Assembly: GCA_017621035.1 (NCBI GenBank)
Contig: JAGATY010000047.1
Coordinates: 1 to 38,598 of the forward strand
DNA length: 38,598 bases
Origin: Bacteroides sp.
GTDB taxonomy: Bacteria > Bacteroidota > Bacteroidia > Bacteroidales > Bacteroidaceae
Direction of reading: 5' to 3'
A model generated the notes under the pieces. The model saw only the letters and a program-made list of their open reading frames with translations. It made no database searches and was not told where the DNA came from. Each line of letters opens with the position of its first letter. Position 1 is the first letter of the stretch. The translations under genes were made by a program, and so were the position numbers. Below are positions 6,141 to 38,598 of the stretch, piece by piece.

Positions 6141-6212
6141 AAAAAGATAAGAATCGATATATTTTTCTTTCTTACACTGACCGCTTTCCTCGAACGATCA
6201 ATTTCTTGACTC

Positions 6213-6390
6213 GGCTTTGCAGGTCTTCTGACTTGTCTCGGTAACGCATCGCCTTCCCATTCGTCAAAGAACAGTGGCATTGGTTTCGTGATGCGCCTTT
6301 CTTTAGAGACTTACAGCAGCGGGACTGTTCAGGACTCTCACCTGATTCCCTTTTCATCCTCCCTCCGAACAGGAGTTACGGAACAAAACC
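6213..6390 (-). ncRNA. Cobalamin riboswitch upstream of btuB
   Basis: On the minus strand the leader shows the conserved parts of the cobalamin (AdoCbl) aptamer in order. A GGTTTTG arm (6384-6390) pairs with CAAAGCC (6213-6219) as P1. Between them lie AAAAGGGAATCAGGTG, AGTCCTGAACAGTCCCGC, TGCTGTAAG, GCCACTG, GGGAAGG and the closing AAGTCAGAAGACCTGC (B12 box). It lies about 70 nt before the btuB start. By established knowledge, ligand binding to this class lowers expression of B12 uptake genes; here it would control the whole btuB-btuG-btuF-btuC operon. Confidence 0.93.
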
Positions 6391-6394
6391 GTGG

Positions 6395-6424
6395 CAAAGG
6401 TATCGATAATATTTTAATCCGCAA
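6395..6424 (-). promoter_or_regulatory. Promoter of the btuB riboswitch operon
   Basis: On the minus strand TACCTTTG (6395-6402) fits the -7 box and TTG (6422-6424) lies 19 bp upstream. Transcription would start only a few bases before the aptamer P1 arm at 6390. Confidence 0.65.
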
Positions 6425-10146: not shown

Positions 10147-10341
10147 CACTTTTGGCCAAAAGAGTGGACATTTCAGCCAAAAGAGTGGACTTTTCAGTCA
10201 AAAGTCTCGCTCTTTTCGGCAAGAAGTCCGCTACTTTTCGGGCAAAAGTCTTATTGTTGTGAGGCAAAGGTTTAAATCTTTTGGTCGAAAGGTTTAAATC
10301 TTAGCAGCCGAAGGTCTTATTGTTGTGGCAAAAAGGAACAA
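10147..10341. repeat. Degenerate 21-22-bp periodic array (about nine units)
   Basis: Purine cores of the type GGCAAAAG recur with starts of the A-run at 10158, 10179, 10200, 10221, 10244, 10266, 10288, about 10310 and 10330, so steps are mostly 21-22 bp. Units vary, but many carry a dyad: CTTTTGGCCAAAAG is a perfect palindrome, and ACTTTTCGGGCAAAAGT is nearly so. GTCTTATTGTTGTG recurs at 10248 and 10314. No spacer is present, so it is not CRISPR. It lies downstream of cbiB in a 576-bp gap. Confidence 0.7.
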
Positions 10342-17234: not shown

Positions 17235-17236
17235 TG

Positions 17237-17266
17237 ATTTCTGATTTTTGATTTATGATTTATGAT
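17237..17266. repeat. TGATTT(A)T short repeat cluster
   Basis: TGATTTCTGATTTTTGATT followed by TATGATTTATGATTC: four to five copies of a TGATTT unit. The same unit recurs at 38147-38177 and, inverted, at 38553-38598. Confidence 0.7.
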
Positions 17267-17275
17267 TCGCTACCA

Positions 17276-18074: not shown

Positions 18075-18162
18075 AGATAGCCTGTTTTTGTTGATATTTT
18101 TAACCAAATGCAAAGAAACCGTAAATCACTGATTATAAAACGATTGGTTTAAGGCCATACAT

Positions 18163-18250
18163 TAGGGGTGTCAATGCGCTACATCGAGGGTGTCAATGTG
18201 CTACATCGGGAGTGTCAATGTGCTACATCGGGAGTGCCAATGTAGTACCT
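18163..18250. repeat. Exact 22-bp tandem array (four units)
   Basis: The unit GTGTCAATGTGCTACATCGG recurs with TCAATG (CCAATG in the last) at 18171, 18193, 18215 and 18237: exactly 22 bp each step. Units differ by one to a few bases; the last decays to CCAATGTAGTACC. Each holds the dyad ATGT-GCT-ACAT. No ORF crosses it convincingly. It lies downstream of the channel gene (minus). Confidence 0.9.
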
Positions 18251-18278
18251 TTTCCAGACTGTAATATTATTTCTTAAC

Positions 18279-27930: not shown

Positions 27931-28002
27931 GGTTCCTTGGATGAGTGGCTTAGTCAGCGGTCTGCAAAACCGTGTACGGCGGTTCGAATCCGCCAGGAAC
28001 CT
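27931..28002 (+). tRNA. tRNA-Cys (anticodon GCA)
   Basis: Acceptor GGTTCCT (27931-27937) pairs with AGGAACC (27995-28001). The anticodon arm GCGGT-CTGCAAA-ACCGT carries anticodon GCA (27963-27965). The T-arm GGCGG-TTCGAAT-CCGCC is perfect. The D-stem G-A-T/G-T-C has a non-Watson-Crick last pair, as often in tRNA-Cys. The discriminator is T (U73), the normal identity base for tRNA-Cys; CCA is not encoded. Confidence 0.96.
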
Positions 28003-28140
28003 CTCCCTTCCCCCTTCCCTCCCTGGGCAAACTTCGGTGGCCTGGGGATTTTTTTTGCCCCTAACAATCCCCATCTCTCTCCTTGCCGGCTGTAAGTGCA
28101 CGCTGTTTCTGCAGAAACATAGACACTTACGGATAAAACA
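28003..28140. other. Non-coding interval after tRNA-Cys
   Basis: No ORF. GGGCAAA (about 28025-28031) can pair with TTTGCCC (about 28056-28062) across a loop holding eight T, a possible but poor terminator for tRNA-Cys. GCACGCTGTTT (28098-28108) matches in inverse form AAACAGCGTGC (28136-28146), at the start of the next array. Confidence 0.4.
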
Positions 28141-28385
28141 GCGTGCTATTTTAATAGAAAGAGCGTGCTGTTTTAGTAGAAAGAGCGTGCTGTTACCGAC
28201 AAACAAACACCATATACACCCTGTTTATTCCACACAAGTGAGAAGTTTGCTCCACACAAGTGTGGAAGAAACTCGACACAAGTGTGGAGTAAATGCCGCA
28301 CAAGTGTGGAAGAAACGCCGTTTTAGTAAAGAGAAAACGTCGTTTTAACAAAGGAAACACACCGTTTTAGTGAAGAAGAAACGCC
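28141..28385. repeat. 22-bp periodic array with three successive unit families
   Basis: Family a: GCGTGCTGTTTTAGTAGAAAG-type units at 28141, 28163 and 28185. Family b: ACAAGTG at 28234, 28256, 28278 and 28300, inside dyads such as CCACAC-AA-GTGTGG. Family c: GTTTTAGT-type units at 28320, 28342 and 28364. Steps within each family are exactly 22 bp, and b runs into c without losing phase. The end of family b (GAAGAAACGCC) reappears in c. No spacers, no ORF. It lies between tRNA-Cys and the nrdD riboswitch. Confidence 0.88.
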
Positions 28386-28549: not shown

Positions 28550-28557
28550 TAAGTTTG
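28550..28557 (+). promoter_or_regulatory. -7 promoter box before the nrdD riboswitch
   Basis: TAAGTTTG fits TAnnTTTG; the aptamer begins about 6 bp downstream, which supports a start near 28563. Confidence 0.5.
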
Positions 28558-28562
28558 CTCCC

Positions 28563-28752
28563 GAATCGGTTCCCCGTTAGGCTATCGCCCTCGGGGATGA
28601 AAAGGGAATCGGGTGGAAATCCCGAACAGACCCGCTGCTGTGAAGCTCTGCCGACGTTCTGATACACACCTTTGCCACTGACCGACAACGGAATCTACCT
28701 GCACGGTTGGGAAGGCTTCAGAACGAGGAGTCAGTCAGAAGACCTGCCGTTC
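28563..28752 (+). ncRNA. Cobalamin riboswitch upstream of nrdD-nrdG
   Basis: The aptamer elements appear in order: GAATCGG (28563-28569) pairing with CCGTTC (28747-28752), GATGAAAAGGGAATCGGGTG, AAATCCCGAACAGACCCGC, TGCTGTGAAG, GCCACTG, GGGAAGGC and GTCAGAAGACCTGCC. They match the same landmarks as the btuB leader at 6213-6390. A small AAAGG-CCG-CCTTT hairpin (about 28757-28769) follows and may take part in the switch. By known precedent, such riboswitches repress B12-independent ribonucleotide reductases when B12 is plentiful. Confidence 0.92.
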
Positions 28753-28832
28753 ATTAAAGGCCGCCTTTACTCGTGGAATAGGAAGACGGTACGAAAGCAT
28801 TTTACCCACAACTCAAAATCATCGAAGAGCGT

Positions 28833-31076
28833 ATGATTCAAACAGTAGTGAAGCGCGACGGGCGCATTGTCGGCTTCAATGAAGAGAAGATTGCCACCGC
28901 TATCCGAAAGGCAATGCTCCACACGGAGAAGGGAGAGGATATGCAACTTATCAGGCAAATAACCGACCACATCTCCTTCCGAGGTGAAGCACAGATGGAG
29001 GTGGAAGCCATCCAAGACATGGTGGAGATGGAGCTGATGAAGAGTAGTCGTAAGGATGTTGCCCAAAAGTATATTGCCTATCGCAATCAACGACGCATAG
29101 CACGCAAAGCCAAGACACGTGACATTTTTCTGGAGATTATCAACATCAAGAGTAACGACGTTACACGAGAAAATGCCAACATGAATGCAGACACGCCGGC
29201 CGGCATGATGATGAAGTTCTCCAGCGAAACCACCAAGCCTTTTGTGGATGACTACTTATTGAGTGATGAAGTGAAAGAGGCAGTACGAGGAAACTATCTG
29301 CACATTCACGACAAAGATTATTATCCGACCAAAAGTCTAACCTGCGTGCAACATCCATTAGACCGCATTTTGCAACATGGTTTCTTTGCCGGACACGGAG
29401 CTTCGCGACCGGCCAAACGCATCGAAACAGCCAGCATTCTGGGATGTATATCACTGGAAACTGCCCAAAATGAGATGCATGGCGGACAGGCTATTCCTGC
29501 TTTCGATTTCTATTTGGCTCCCTACGTGCGTTCCTCTTTCATCGAAGAGGTCAAATCGTTGGAAGAGTTAATGGGGAAAGACTATTCACATCTGTATAAC
29601 AAAGAGTTGGACGACTATCTTTCCGCACCGTTGGAGGGTTTGGAGGGCGAAGCACGCATTCTGCAAAGTGCTATCAACAAAACCGTCAGTCGTGTGCACC
29701 AAGCCATGGAAGCGTTTATTCATAACATGAATACAATACATAGTAGGGGTGGTAACCAAGTTGTATTCTCTTCTATCAACTACGGCACCGACACCAGTGC
29801 CGAGGGACGTTGCATTATTCGTGAGTTATTGAACAGCACCTATCGAGGTGTGGGCAATGGCGAAACCGCCATCTTCCCTATCCAGATTTGGAAGAAGAAA
29901 CGAGGTGTAAGTTACTTGATTGAAGACCGTAATTACGACCTCTATCGTTTGGCTTGTAAAGTAAGCGCACGACGTTTCTTCCCTAACTTCCTCAACCTGG
30001 ATGCCACTTTCAATCAGAATGAAGCTTGGCAGGCTGATGACCCGAAGCGCTACGAGCACGAAGTGGCTACCATGGGATGCCGTACCCGTGTGTTTGAAAA
30101 TCGTTTTGGACCAAAGACCTCCATCGGACGCGGTAACCTTTCGTTCTCCACCATCAACATTGTGCGTCTGGCTATCGAGTGTATGTCTGTTACCGATGTT
30201 GAACAACGCATTGCTCTCTTCTTCTCCAAATTGGACAATCTGTTAGAAATTACAGCTCGTCAATTGCACGAGCGCATGGAGTTTCAAAAGACGGCATATG
30301 CCAAGCAATTCCCTCTGCTGATGTCTTCGCTTTGGATAGGAAGCGAGAATCTGAAGCCCGGCGACACCATTGCCTCTGTCATCAACCAAGGTACACTAGG
30401 AATAGGTTTCATTGGATTGGCAGAATGCTTGGTTGCTCTGATAGGAAAGCATCATGGAGAGAGTGATGAAGCACAACAATTGGGCCTTCGCATCATCACG
30501 TACATGCGCGACAGAGCCAACGATTTCTCCGAGCGTAACCAACACAACTACAGTATTTTGGCTACTCCTGCAGAAGGACTCTCCGGGCGTTTTACCCGCA
30601 TTGACCGTAAGGAATTTGGCATCTTATCTGGTATTACAGACCGCGATTACTACACCAATTCAAACCATGTGCCTGTTTACTATAAATGCTCCGCCCGACA
30701 TAAAGCCGAAGTGGAAGCTCCTTATCACGAACTTACACGTGGCGGACACATCTTCTACGTGGAGATGGATGGTGATGCAACTCACAATCCTGAAGCCATA
30801 ATGCGTGTGGTAGACATGATGGACGCTTACAACATTGGGTACGGTTCGGTCAATCACACACGCAACCGTTGTATGGCATGCGGATATGAGAATGCTGAAA
30901 GCGGATTGGAACAATGTCCCAAGTGTGGAAGCAAACACATCGACCGCCTGCAACGCATCACCGGATACTTGGTTGGAACAACCGACAGATGGAACGCTGC
31001 CAAGCTATCTGAACTTAACGACCGTGTTATTCATAACTTAGATGCCTCTCAACCATGCTTGCCATTCTCAGAGTAA
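28833..31076 (+). CDS. nrdD: Anaerobic ribonucleoside-triphosphate reductase NrdD (class III, glycyl radical)
   Basis: 747 residues. The N-terminal ATP-cone (about 3-92: VVKRDGRIVGFNEEKIATAIRKAM) is the allosteric domain. The catalytic barrel includes IHDKDYYPTKSLTCVQHPL and RGGNQVVFSSINYGTD. At the C-terminus a zinc site has Cys680, Cys683, Cys695 and Cys698 (CMAC ... CPKC), followed by the glycyl-radical loop RITGYL with Gly711. It reduces ribonucleotides to deoxyribonucleotides without oxygen. The enzyme does not need B12, yet its mRNA carries a cobalamin riboswitch. It overlaps nrdG by 22 nt. Confidence 0.96.
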   Translation: MIQTVVKRDGRIVGFNEEKIATAIRKAMLHTEKGEDMQLIRQITDHISFRGEAQMEVEAIQDMVEMELMKSSRKDVAQKYIAYRNQRRIARKAKTRDIFLEIINIKSNDVTRENANMNADTPAGMMMKFSSETTKPFVDDYLLSDEVKEAVRGNYLHIHDKDYYPTKSLTCVQHPLDRILQHGFFAGHGASRPAKRIETASILGCISLETAQNEMHGGQAIPAFDFYLAPYVRSSFIEEVKSLEELMGKDYSHLYNKELDDYLSAPLEGLEGEARILQSAINKTVSRVHQAMEAFIHNMNTIHSRGGNQVVFSSINYGTDTSAEGRCIIRELLNSTYRGVGNGETAIFPIQIWKKKRGVSYLIEDRNYDLYRLACKVSARRFFPNFLNLDATFNQNEAWQADDPKRYEHEVATMGCRTRVFENRFGPKTSIGRGNLSFSTINIVRLAIECMSVTDVEQRIALFFSKLDNLLEITARQLHERMEFQKTAYAKQFPLLMSSLWIGSENLKPGDTIASVINQGTLGIGFIGLAECLVALIGKHHGESDEAQQLGLRIITYMRDRANDFSERNQHNYSILATPAEGLSGRFTRIDRKEFGILSGITDRDYYTNSNHVPVYYKCSARHKAEVEAPYHELTRGGHIFYVEMDGDATHNPEAIMRVVDMMDAYNIGYGSVNHTRNRCMACGYENAESGLEQCPKCGSKHIDRLQRITGYLVGTTDRWNAAKLSELNDRVIHNLDASQPCLPFSE

Positions 31077-37526: not shown

Positions 37527-38147
37527 ATGGAACTCATCCTGAAATACTTCCCCGAGCTGACCGACGAGCAGAAGCAGCAATTCGCTGCCCTCGACGCGCT
37601 CTACCACGACTGGAATGCGAAGATTAACGTCATCTCGCGAAAAGATATCGACAACCTGTACGAGCACCACGTGCTCCACTCACTCAGCATTGCCAAGGTC
37701 ATCAACTTCCGCCCCGGCACGCACGTCATGGACTTAGGCACCGGCGGAGGTTTCCCCGGCATTCCGCTCGCCATACTCTTCCCCGAAGTGAAATTCCACC
37801 TGGTGGACAGCATCGGCAAGAAGGTGCGCGTGGCCACCGAGGTAGCATCGGCCATCGGACTGAAGAACGTCACCTTCTGCCACGAGCGGGCGGAGGACGA
37901 GAAGCAGACCTTCGACTTCGTAGTCAGTCGAGCCGTCATGCCCCTCACCGACCTGCTGAAAATCATCCGCAAAAACATCTCCGTCAAGCAGCAAAACGCC
38001 CTCCCCAACGGCCTCATCTGCCTGAAAGGCGGAGAATTGGAGCGCGAAACCCTCCCCGTGAAGCACAAAACCACCATCTGGGAGCTGAAAGACCACTTCA
38101 CCGAAGAATACTTCGACACCAAAAAGGTCGTTTACGCAAGCATTTGA
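37527..38147 (+). CDS. rsmG: 16S rRNA (guanine(527)-N7)-methyltransferase RsmG
   Basis: 206 residues, usual length. The opening LTDEQKQQFAALDALYHDWNAKINVISRKDIDNLYEHHVLHSLSI (11-55) is typical of RsmG. The S-adenosylmethionine site is MDLGTGGGFPGIPLAI (68-83), followed by LVDSIGKKVRV (about 92-102) and FDFVVSRAV (about 131-139). It methylates G527 of 16S rRNA; loss gives low-level streptomycin resistance in other bacteria. It lies 12 bp after the DUF3298 lipoprotein gene. Confidence 0.95.
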   Translation: MELILKYFPELTDEQKQQFAALDALYHDWNAKINVISRKDIDNLYEHHVLHSLSIAKVINFRPGTHVMDLGTGGGFPGIPLAILFPEVKFHLVDSIGKKVRVATEVASAIGLKNVTFCHERAEDEKQTFDFVVSRAVMPLTDLLKIIRKNISVKQQNALPNGLICLKGGELERETLPVKHKTTIWELKDHFTEEYFDTKKVVYASI

Positions 38148-38178
38148 TTTCTGATTTCTGATTTATAATTTCTGATTT
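38147..38178. repeat. TGATTT direct repeats upstream of the four-helix gene
   Basis: TGATTTCTGATTTCTGATTT, then ATAATTTCTGATTTTATG leading into the ATG at 38180. The unit is that seen at 17237-17266 and, in reverse orientation, at 38553-38598. Confidence 0.75.
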
Positions 38179-38179
38179 T

Positions 38180-38587
38180 ATGCTGCAGAACCCCACCTTA
38201 TCAAAGGCCATTGCCTACGCTGTACGGATAGTAAATTTATATAAGTTTCTCGCCGAACAGAAGTCCGAGTTTGTCATGAGTAAGCAACTATTGCGTTGCG
38301 GAACCTCCATTGGAGCCAATATTAGCGAAGCCTTGGGTGCCGAATCTACTGCCGACTTCATTCACAAACTTGCCATCGCTCAAAAAGAGGCCAACGAAAC
38401 CATCTACTGGCTGATTCTGCTCAATCAGACCCAATACATATCAGATATTCAGTACGAATCCATGCACAACGACTGCAACGAACTGCGGAAAATACTTACC
38501 TCCATCATACTAACTACCAAGCAAAAGCACCCCCAAAAAATAACAGCCCCCAATCATAAATCCGAAATCAAAAATCATAAATCATAA
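38180..38587 (+). CDS. Four helix bundle protein (23S rRNA IVS / Avd-like family)
   Basis: 135 residues. Pattern: AIAYAVRIVNLYKFLAEQKSEFVMSKQLLRCGTSIGANISEALGAESTADFIHKLAIAQKEANETIYWLILL, ending ELRKILTSIILTTKQK. The motif LLRCGTSIGANISEA marks the four-helix-bundle family first described from 23S rRNA intervening sequences and related to the Avd accessory protein of diversity-generating retroelements. The last residues (about 121-135, NHKSEIKNHKS) are encoded by the flanking ATCATAA repeat and look like a read-through tail. Function unknown; no reverse transcriptase or rRNA is nearby. The gene ends 11 bp before the window edge. Confidence 0.88.
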   Translation: MLQNPTLSKAIAYAVRIVNLYKFLAEQKSEFVMSKQLLRCGTSIGANISEALGAESTADFIHKLAIAQKEANETIYWLILLNQTQYISDIQYESMHNDCNELRKILTSIILTTKQKHPQKITAPNHKSEIKNHKS

Positions 38588-38598
38588 ATCATAAATCA
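38553..38598. repeat. AAATCATA repeats (inverted copy of the TGATTT unit), cut by window end
   Basis: AATCATAAATCCGAAATC, then AATCATAAATCATAAATCA and further units to the last base. It is the reverse complement type of 38147-38178, so the four-helix gene is bracketed by inverted repeat clusters. The stop codon (38585-38587) lies within it. Confidence 0.8.

Follow-up and report, generated by a model that had tools for sequence, protein, structure and literature searches.

The 22-bp arrays described here retain their spacing more faithfully than their sequence, and family F1, to which the central array of this study belongs, appears to be a dispersed cis-element in which four 8-bp sites, CAC(AA|TT)GTG, lie exactly 22 bp apart. 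Since this spacing equals two helical turns, the sites would be expected to face the same side of the duplex, and most likely a putative sequence-specific DNA-binding protein sits side by side on them. That the arrays are such phased sites, spread by MITE-type mobility and reshaped by inversion and by gain and loss of units, is the explanation we tentatively prefer on the basis of the sequence data: a two-turn spacing, conserved cores and linkers that change without indels would be as predicted for a phased multi-site for DNA binding. Dispersal, exact spacing, an array better conserved than its carrier, flipped segments and differences in unit number and presence are direct observations; that a protein is bound, that it binds cooperatively and that selection accounts for the conservation are inferred.

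In the window, i.e. the whole stretch of 38,598 bp that was analysed and that corresponds to an entire contig of its genome (G000), three abutting 22-bp arrays are located between a tRNA-Cys gene on the left (27931–28003, forward strand) and a cobalamin riboswitch on the right (28550–28765, forward strand), the latter lying upstream of an ORF at 28833–31076. The unit starts reported in the first-pass annotation proved to be exact (GCGTGCT at 28141, 28163 and 28185; ACAAGTG at 28234, 28256, 28278 and 28300; GTTTTA at 28320, 28342 and 28364), and an extra copy of GTTTTA was found at 28170. TRF placed 22-bp arrays at 28136–28194, 28250–28316 and 28313–28385, as well as additional 21/22-bp arrays of different sequence at other positions of the window. 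The left array (28136–28203) comprises about three units of the type GCGTGCT[A/G]TTTTA[A/G]TAGAAAGA, as judged by TRF, and shows palindromic symmetry (p = 0.002); the right array (28313–28385, TRF) likewise has about three units (CCGTTTTAGTAAAGAGAAAACG). The middle array spans 28230–28309 and contains four cores CACAAGTG, all in the same orientation, which lie at 28233–28240, 28255–28262, 28277–28284 and 28299–28306. Alignment with 34 further loci defined the F1 element at 28222–28317 as four units (14-bp core plus 8-bp spacer) bounded by ends of 8 bp; its assignment to the reverse strand is a convention taken from the family alignment. The units of the window arrays abut one another. The small dyad CCACACAAGTGTGG, previously ascribed to many units, could be upheld as a perfect one in one of the four window units, but not in the remaining three, which carry two, one and one mismatches. 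On visual comparison, the two outer GTTTTA arrays (left and right) are closer to one another than to the middle array, and the spacer words AGCGTGCT and AAGAAACG are common to the window arrays and other copies of the middle family.

The window also contains a 22-bp array of family F8 (GTGTCAATGTGCTACATCGGGA; 18149–18253, TRF), which is unrelated to F1 and has a second copy at L223:19480, and, at 10155–10315 (TRF), an array with a period of 21/22 bp that belongs to a third family (CTTTTGGNCAAAAGTCTTA type) and has similar counterparts at L220:16227, L221:3015 and L231:7232. Separate heptamer arrays (TGATTTA, AATCATA and GGTGATA types) are found at 151–202, 17235–17267, 38145–38178 and 38552–38598, one of them reaching the contig end. 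With regard to known RNA elements, a search of the window against Rfam at gathering scores gave two cobalamin riboswitches, both on this one contig (the other at 6201–6403, reverse strand), and one tRNA, and no match for the arrays. An array behind tRNA-Cys was seen in none of the 28 loci compared in relatives, two of which end about 115 bp or less from the tRNA.

The middle-array region gave 67 matches in its own genome, counting both strands, and 35 copies (including that of the window), picked as ungapped chains of four cores, align with the same architecture, in which each of the four units combines a 14-bp core with an 8-bp spacer. The centre of the core was AA in 71 and TT in 69 of their 140 cores and nothing else in any of them, and a single AT was found among 140 core centres of the relative G132. 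Comparison across species shows a constant 8-bp core within a unit that otherwise differs, and F1 arrays are also present in B. heparinolyticus DSM 23917. A triple-core pattern occurred in 10 of 158 genomes of the genus, including the own genome (44 pattern windows in G000, 63 in G132, 30 in G027 and 1–5 in each of seven others), in three of 201 genomes in a draw from the family and in one of 118 in a draw from the phylum, each of these counts including G000. The backward control pattern gave five pattern windows in two of the 158 genus genomes (four in G081 and one in G153). It did not occur in the phylum draw; G222, from another genus of the family, had 26 such windows, which read GTGWWCAC with 22-bp spacing and seem to constitute a family of their own. 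Among the matches listed outside Bacteroidota in a contig scan, single ones to Gemmatimonadaceae, Burkholderiales, Phycisphaerales, Deltaproteobacteria and Paenisporosarcina may be due to chance. The number of units per array was four in 41 of 44 arrays in G132, in all ten in G027 and in 22 of 34 in G000, where 11 arrays had five units and one had twelve; for the unit and orientation counts in G132 and G027, the loci were selected by the triple-core pattern. In several species, one side of the F1 arrays carries a tail motif near CTGATAATCAACGGTTTATA, sometimes directly upstream of a start codon (G000 loci L043, L050, L080, L083, L086 and L088, the G132 MITEs, and L274 and L297).

Distances between neighbouring strict cores in the G000 loci compared, taken up to 80 bp and without demanding the value 22, were 22 bp in 79 of 87 cases, 44 bp in six, 66 bp in one and 18 bp in one. 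Many of the G132 arrays are embedded in an element of about 229 bp that has the ends ACC[C/T]GTTGGCGGAATTAA, and this genome was searched with 77 bp of MITE flank devoid of array, which avoids selection for spacing; 40 candidates were scored and 23 of them matched. Each of the copies found in this way (the query's own copy included) contains the array, and all of their 59 core spacings are exactly 22 bp, while the MITE flanks carry indels; this supports the statement of the first-pass annotation that sequence is less well preserved than period. Ten of the 19 measurable MITE copies differ from 229 bp in total length, and the first core, at position 87 in 13 copies, is shifted by one base (86 or 88) in the other ten. 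Pairwise comparison of the 23 copies gave a mean identity of 92.0% for the array, with 0.00 gap events per pair, as against 72.4% for the left flank (0.76 gap events) and 76.8% for the right one (0.87), the array being the best-kept of the three MITE parts compared. Selection on the array predicts such a difference between array and flank; gene conversion between copies would also fit. The positions between the cores differ at 33% between the 35 G000 elements (picked as ungapped chains), yet strict neighbouring cores are 22 bp apart, which rules out simple slippage as the sole cause. Spacings other than 22 bp were seen among orthologues at one locus, where one of four was 23 bp in G088 and one of three was 33 bp in G041.

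The first-pass annotation had also named enrichment of 21–22-bp periods in intergenic DNA above shuffled controls as a test of a real element class, and such an excess was evident: in the G000 sample, lag 22 covered 2267 intergenic bp, as compared to a mean of 9 and a maximum of 44 in ten dinucleotide shuffles. It was the strongest intergenic repeat lag between 8 and 60, followed by 14 (1126), 44 (973) and 21 (945); lag 44 is twice 22, and lags 14 and 21 are at least partly due to the separate heptamer class. The sample of 514,598 bases consists of the window and 24 stretches at round coordinates on contigs having F1-region matches; it was not chosen by arrays, yet it includes the window with its five arrays. 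F1 is under-represented in it because the window's F1 element is the sole aligned one there. It holds 54 intergenic 22-bp arrays and three within long ORFs; some of the 54 consist of two units, and 33 are at least 60 bp long. At least eight families with unrelated units could be distinguished by eye among the G000 arrays, in agreement with the earlier remark that the unit sequence changes from one family to another under a common 22-bp period. One of these, F4 (TGCACAAGATGGCATCTTGTG), is a near-palindrome of about 70 bp with three units and is present in seven copies in the sampled 515 kb (L223:11057, L227:17869, L228:18499, L231:13276, L232:14793, L237:19203 and L238:9293).

Expressed per 10 kb of intergenic DNA, with shuffle values in brackets, lag 22 amounted to 357 (0) in G000 and 137 (3) in G036. 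Seven further members of the genus gave 126 (3) and four representatives of other genera in the family 117 (1); G222 reached 830 (0) on just 2.8 kb of intergenic DNA. Ten genomes from elsewhere in the class, beyond the family, yielded 30 (2), and the excess was absent in ten genomes of other classes, at 0 (3). It is also unevenly distributed, being zero in the sampled stretches of G021, and the stretches of G039 show a period of 23 bp instead. In the latter genome, an array of about 470 bp with a 23-bp period (L192:8198–8664) starts within a called ORF. G036, which shares 73% identity with G000 in long DNA matches, has many 22-bp arrays whose cores look wholly different from those of G000; no closely related genome from the species of the window was found.

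The arrays are rearranged in place. The core order TT TT AA AA was observed in 43, 39, 41 and 42 of 45 oriented G132/G027 arrays, counted by slot, and the middle segment, which is the one usually lying between inverted cores, was inverted in six of the 45, as compared to one and none for the outer segments; two, three and seven segments fitted neither orientation. In G000, a two-and-two order (head-to-head or tail-to-tail) was found in eight of the 35 copies, the window copy having four like cores. A palindromic build might allow inverted neighbouring cores to recombine or switch template, whereby the intervening segment would flip, and loss or gain of units would change their number. Comparison of orthologous loci, suggested earlier as a check for unit gain and loss, indeed revealed differing unit counts between close relatives: G088 and G039 are syntenic, with main matches 82–93% identical, and at one site they have five and three units, respectively, between near-identical flanks, one of the G088 spacings being 23 bp. 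Of three further sites of this pair, one has no array in G039, one has arrays that differ, and at one the array is the same (97% over 450 bp). A dispersed element of about 180 bp with ends of the types GTGTCAAAAC and GTTTTGACAC is present at L205:14949–15128 in G088, absent at the orthologous G039 site, and found elsewhere in G039 at C1:2674026–2674204. At the L055 locus, which was compared in 30 of 133 matching genomes by means of a protein query starting at a GTG within the array, the 30 orthologous loci include six with at least three F1 cores, two with degenerate F1-like arrays (G111 and G027), three with other families (22 bp in G096, 23 bp in G086 and G042) and 19 with no array, the upstream alignment of G116 being incomplete. 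As arrays are frequent, the claim for L055 is limited to repeated occupation of one place. G000 and G061 have arrays of different families at one site, which may be a coincidence. Local inversion and loss or gain of units are thus both seen, and neither accounts for the pitch of 22 bp.

Five versus three units in close relatives, a copy with twelve units, segments that flip in place and the spacings of 23 and 33 bp in relatives are all consistent with a neutral minisatellite that is kept uniform by gene conversion and quasi-palindrome template switching, its 22-bp period being an accident of ancestry. Such an origin nevertheless appears rather unlikely to us, as the 22-bp period is common to G000 families unrelated by eye and to other families in G036, four units predominate, and spacings of 21 or 23 bp are lacking both between strict G000 cores and in the MITEs selected by their flank.

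The spread that we propose for the phased protein sites involves MITE-type mobility, and the carrier was seen in relatives. Both MITE ends were found for 19 of the 46 G132 arrays; the other 27 were without both ends within 260 bp, some of them lying near contig ends. Allowing up to four mismatches per end, inverted end pairs numbered 19 in 45 G132 loci and nine in 14 G027 loci, and all contain the array; one G132 pair, spanning 1386 bp, is probably spurious. Flank repeats of at least 8 bases (scored at no more than one mismatch, the length of about 8 being judged by eye and without a shuffled control) were present in 13 of the 19 G132 copies, repeats of 5–6 bases in four and none in two. The G132/G027 carrier thus has the terminal inverted repeats as well as the target-site duplication of a MITE. 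It also has an autonomous partner, an IS of 1019–1020 bp with the same ends (L254, L247 and L257, from other species of the genus than G132), whose transposase matches NCBIfam IS982 with E-values of 9.5e-72 (L254) and 2e-72 (L247). At one orthologous site, the element is present in G132 and absent in G027. Searching G000 with the G132 MITE gave no match, and the MITE ends are absent from that genome; the array flanks of G000 share no clear ends, the copies falling into several flank types, and terminal inverted repeats and a target duplication were not found for the window copy. MITE-type mobility is hence a property of the arrays in two relatives, G132 and G027, and presumably of the window copy too.

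It is conceivable that the array is merely the interior of a selfish MITE, serving the element's own transposition by binding transposase or host factors, without a function for the host. The location of the G132/G027 array in a MITE of about 229 bp with IS982-type ends argues for this, as do BrickBuilt of P. gingivalis, a MITE with 23-nt tandem repeats (PMC4596501), and an IS982-derived MITE of about 240 bp described in Cardinium (PMC9769881), both as portrayed in the available parts of these sources. We consider it improbable, however, given that arrays without these ends occur in the own genome and in part of the G132 copies, and that the flanks have diverged and the array has not, which selfish use alone does not predict.

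Folding of the arrays was variable. Single-strand folding was far above shuffles for the tested F1, F4 and F5 arrays (z from −3.7 to −7.7) and not good for those of F2, F7 and F8, the result for F8 being mixed (z +0.7 for the window copy and RNA z −3.6 for the copy at L223:19480). The RNA-fold z-value was −3 or lower in 15 of the 54 G000 arrays, between −3 and −1.5 in five and above −1.5 in 34. Of the 60 arrays that are at least 60 bp long and have a period of 22 or 23 bp, 33 proved palindromic (p < 0.05) in a symmetry test applied to each array, which replaced an earlier and weak consensus-based test; these were 15 of 34 in G000, nine of ten in G036, four of eight in other genomes of the genus and five of eight in other genera. 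A conserved block plus a variable linker within the units, which one would expect if the units were binding sites, was discernible (p < 0.05) in only 13 of the 54 arrays, taking all families. No covariation was found in the 35 copies for local, spacer-centred or whole-element pairing (27 permutation tests; the lowest p, 0.01 for core 1 with core 3, is uncorrected). The genes around F1 arrays in G000 were convergent in eight, divergent in four and tandem in 12 cases, against 16, 15 and 33 in the background, and the corresponding numbers in G132 were 7, 5 and 13 against 16, 16 and 37; 11 of 35 places in G000 and 21 of 46 in G132 were not assignable, and the background includes array-bearing gaps. 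Because gene orientation around the arrays is like the background, no promoter or terminator role is apparent. Hairpins, which the first-pass annotation had offered as one common cause, could not be sustained as such, since the pairing is without covariation and most arrays fold poorly; the common feature is the pitch. RNA or cruciform hairpins serving as transcript ends, stability elements or targets of structure-specific recognition are accordingly a very unlikely explanation, despite the strong folding of F1, F4 and F5 and the frequent symmetry, the placement relative to genes also being like the background.

With regard to the phased protein sites that we favour, it should be underlined that gene conversion among copies could equally make the array more uniform than its flanks, that a few spacings in relatives deviate from 22 bp, and that the head-to-head order is not general. 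An essential function common to the relatives is unlikely, as G036 is without the triple-core pattern and without an array at one compared site. On a wider scale, the arrays might represent a Bacteroidaceae class, with some hundreds of members in this genome by extrapolation, in which the geometry (22 bp, often dyadic, mostly three to five units) would be inherited and the sequence free between sister species, either via fast-evolving architectural DNA-binding proteins and sites that evolve along with them, or via a recombination or copying process fixing the two-turn pitch; we regard this as possible but speculative. Were the spacing under selection, common gut bacteria would carry binding arrays for unnamed proteins at many intergenic places, and turnover of the arrays could make sister species differ in gene control or in the organisation of their chromosomes. 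The protein-site reading predicts that 22 bp works and that half a turn more fails. Should the spacing owe nothing to selection, a mutational process working at a pitch of two turns would be a novelty.

Several known systems resemble the arrays in part. REP/BIME and REPIN sequences, associated with RAYT (Y1) transposases, consist of numerous palindromic units that are scattered over intergenic DNA and often grouped in small arrays, and the window family likewise has a dispersed palindromic intergenic unit. In contrast to REP/BIME, the arrays described here show a strict 22-bp head-to-tail spacing and no pairing covariation. Y1_Tnp (PF01797) gave no match in G000 (91% complete) and had matches in 35 of the 158 genomes of the genus, and the lack of a Y1 match in G000 speaks against identity with REP/RAYT. 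The ends of Tn7 and Mu and the iterons of plasmids contain protein sites of about 22 bp placed side by side, at one element end or origin, whereas the present arrays occur at dozens of scattered places. No published account of a 22-bp array class was recognised in the literature searched, in which journal coverage was partial. The closest published relatives known to us are BrickBuilt (PMC4596501) and, for the carrier, the Cardinium IS982 MITE (PMC9769881), each as described in the available part of its source. The latter fits the G132/G027 carrier in size and in its IS982-type parent; the word 'tandem' is absent from its main text as available, and, unlike that MITE, the F1 array is also found outside such a carrier, the own genome being without a MITE match. 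BrickBuilt, from which the available part of the source reports no relative outside P. gingivalis, shares with the arrays its occurrence in Bacteroidales, its dispersed intergenic location and a spacerless tandem repeat of similar length within a MITE that bears terminal inverted repeats, those of BrickBuilt being of the GAGACCTTTGCA type (PMC4596501). Its unit is 23 nt and that of the window arrays 22 bp, and whereas the available part of the BrickBuilt account reports no set of families with one period (PMC4596501), such a set is present here.
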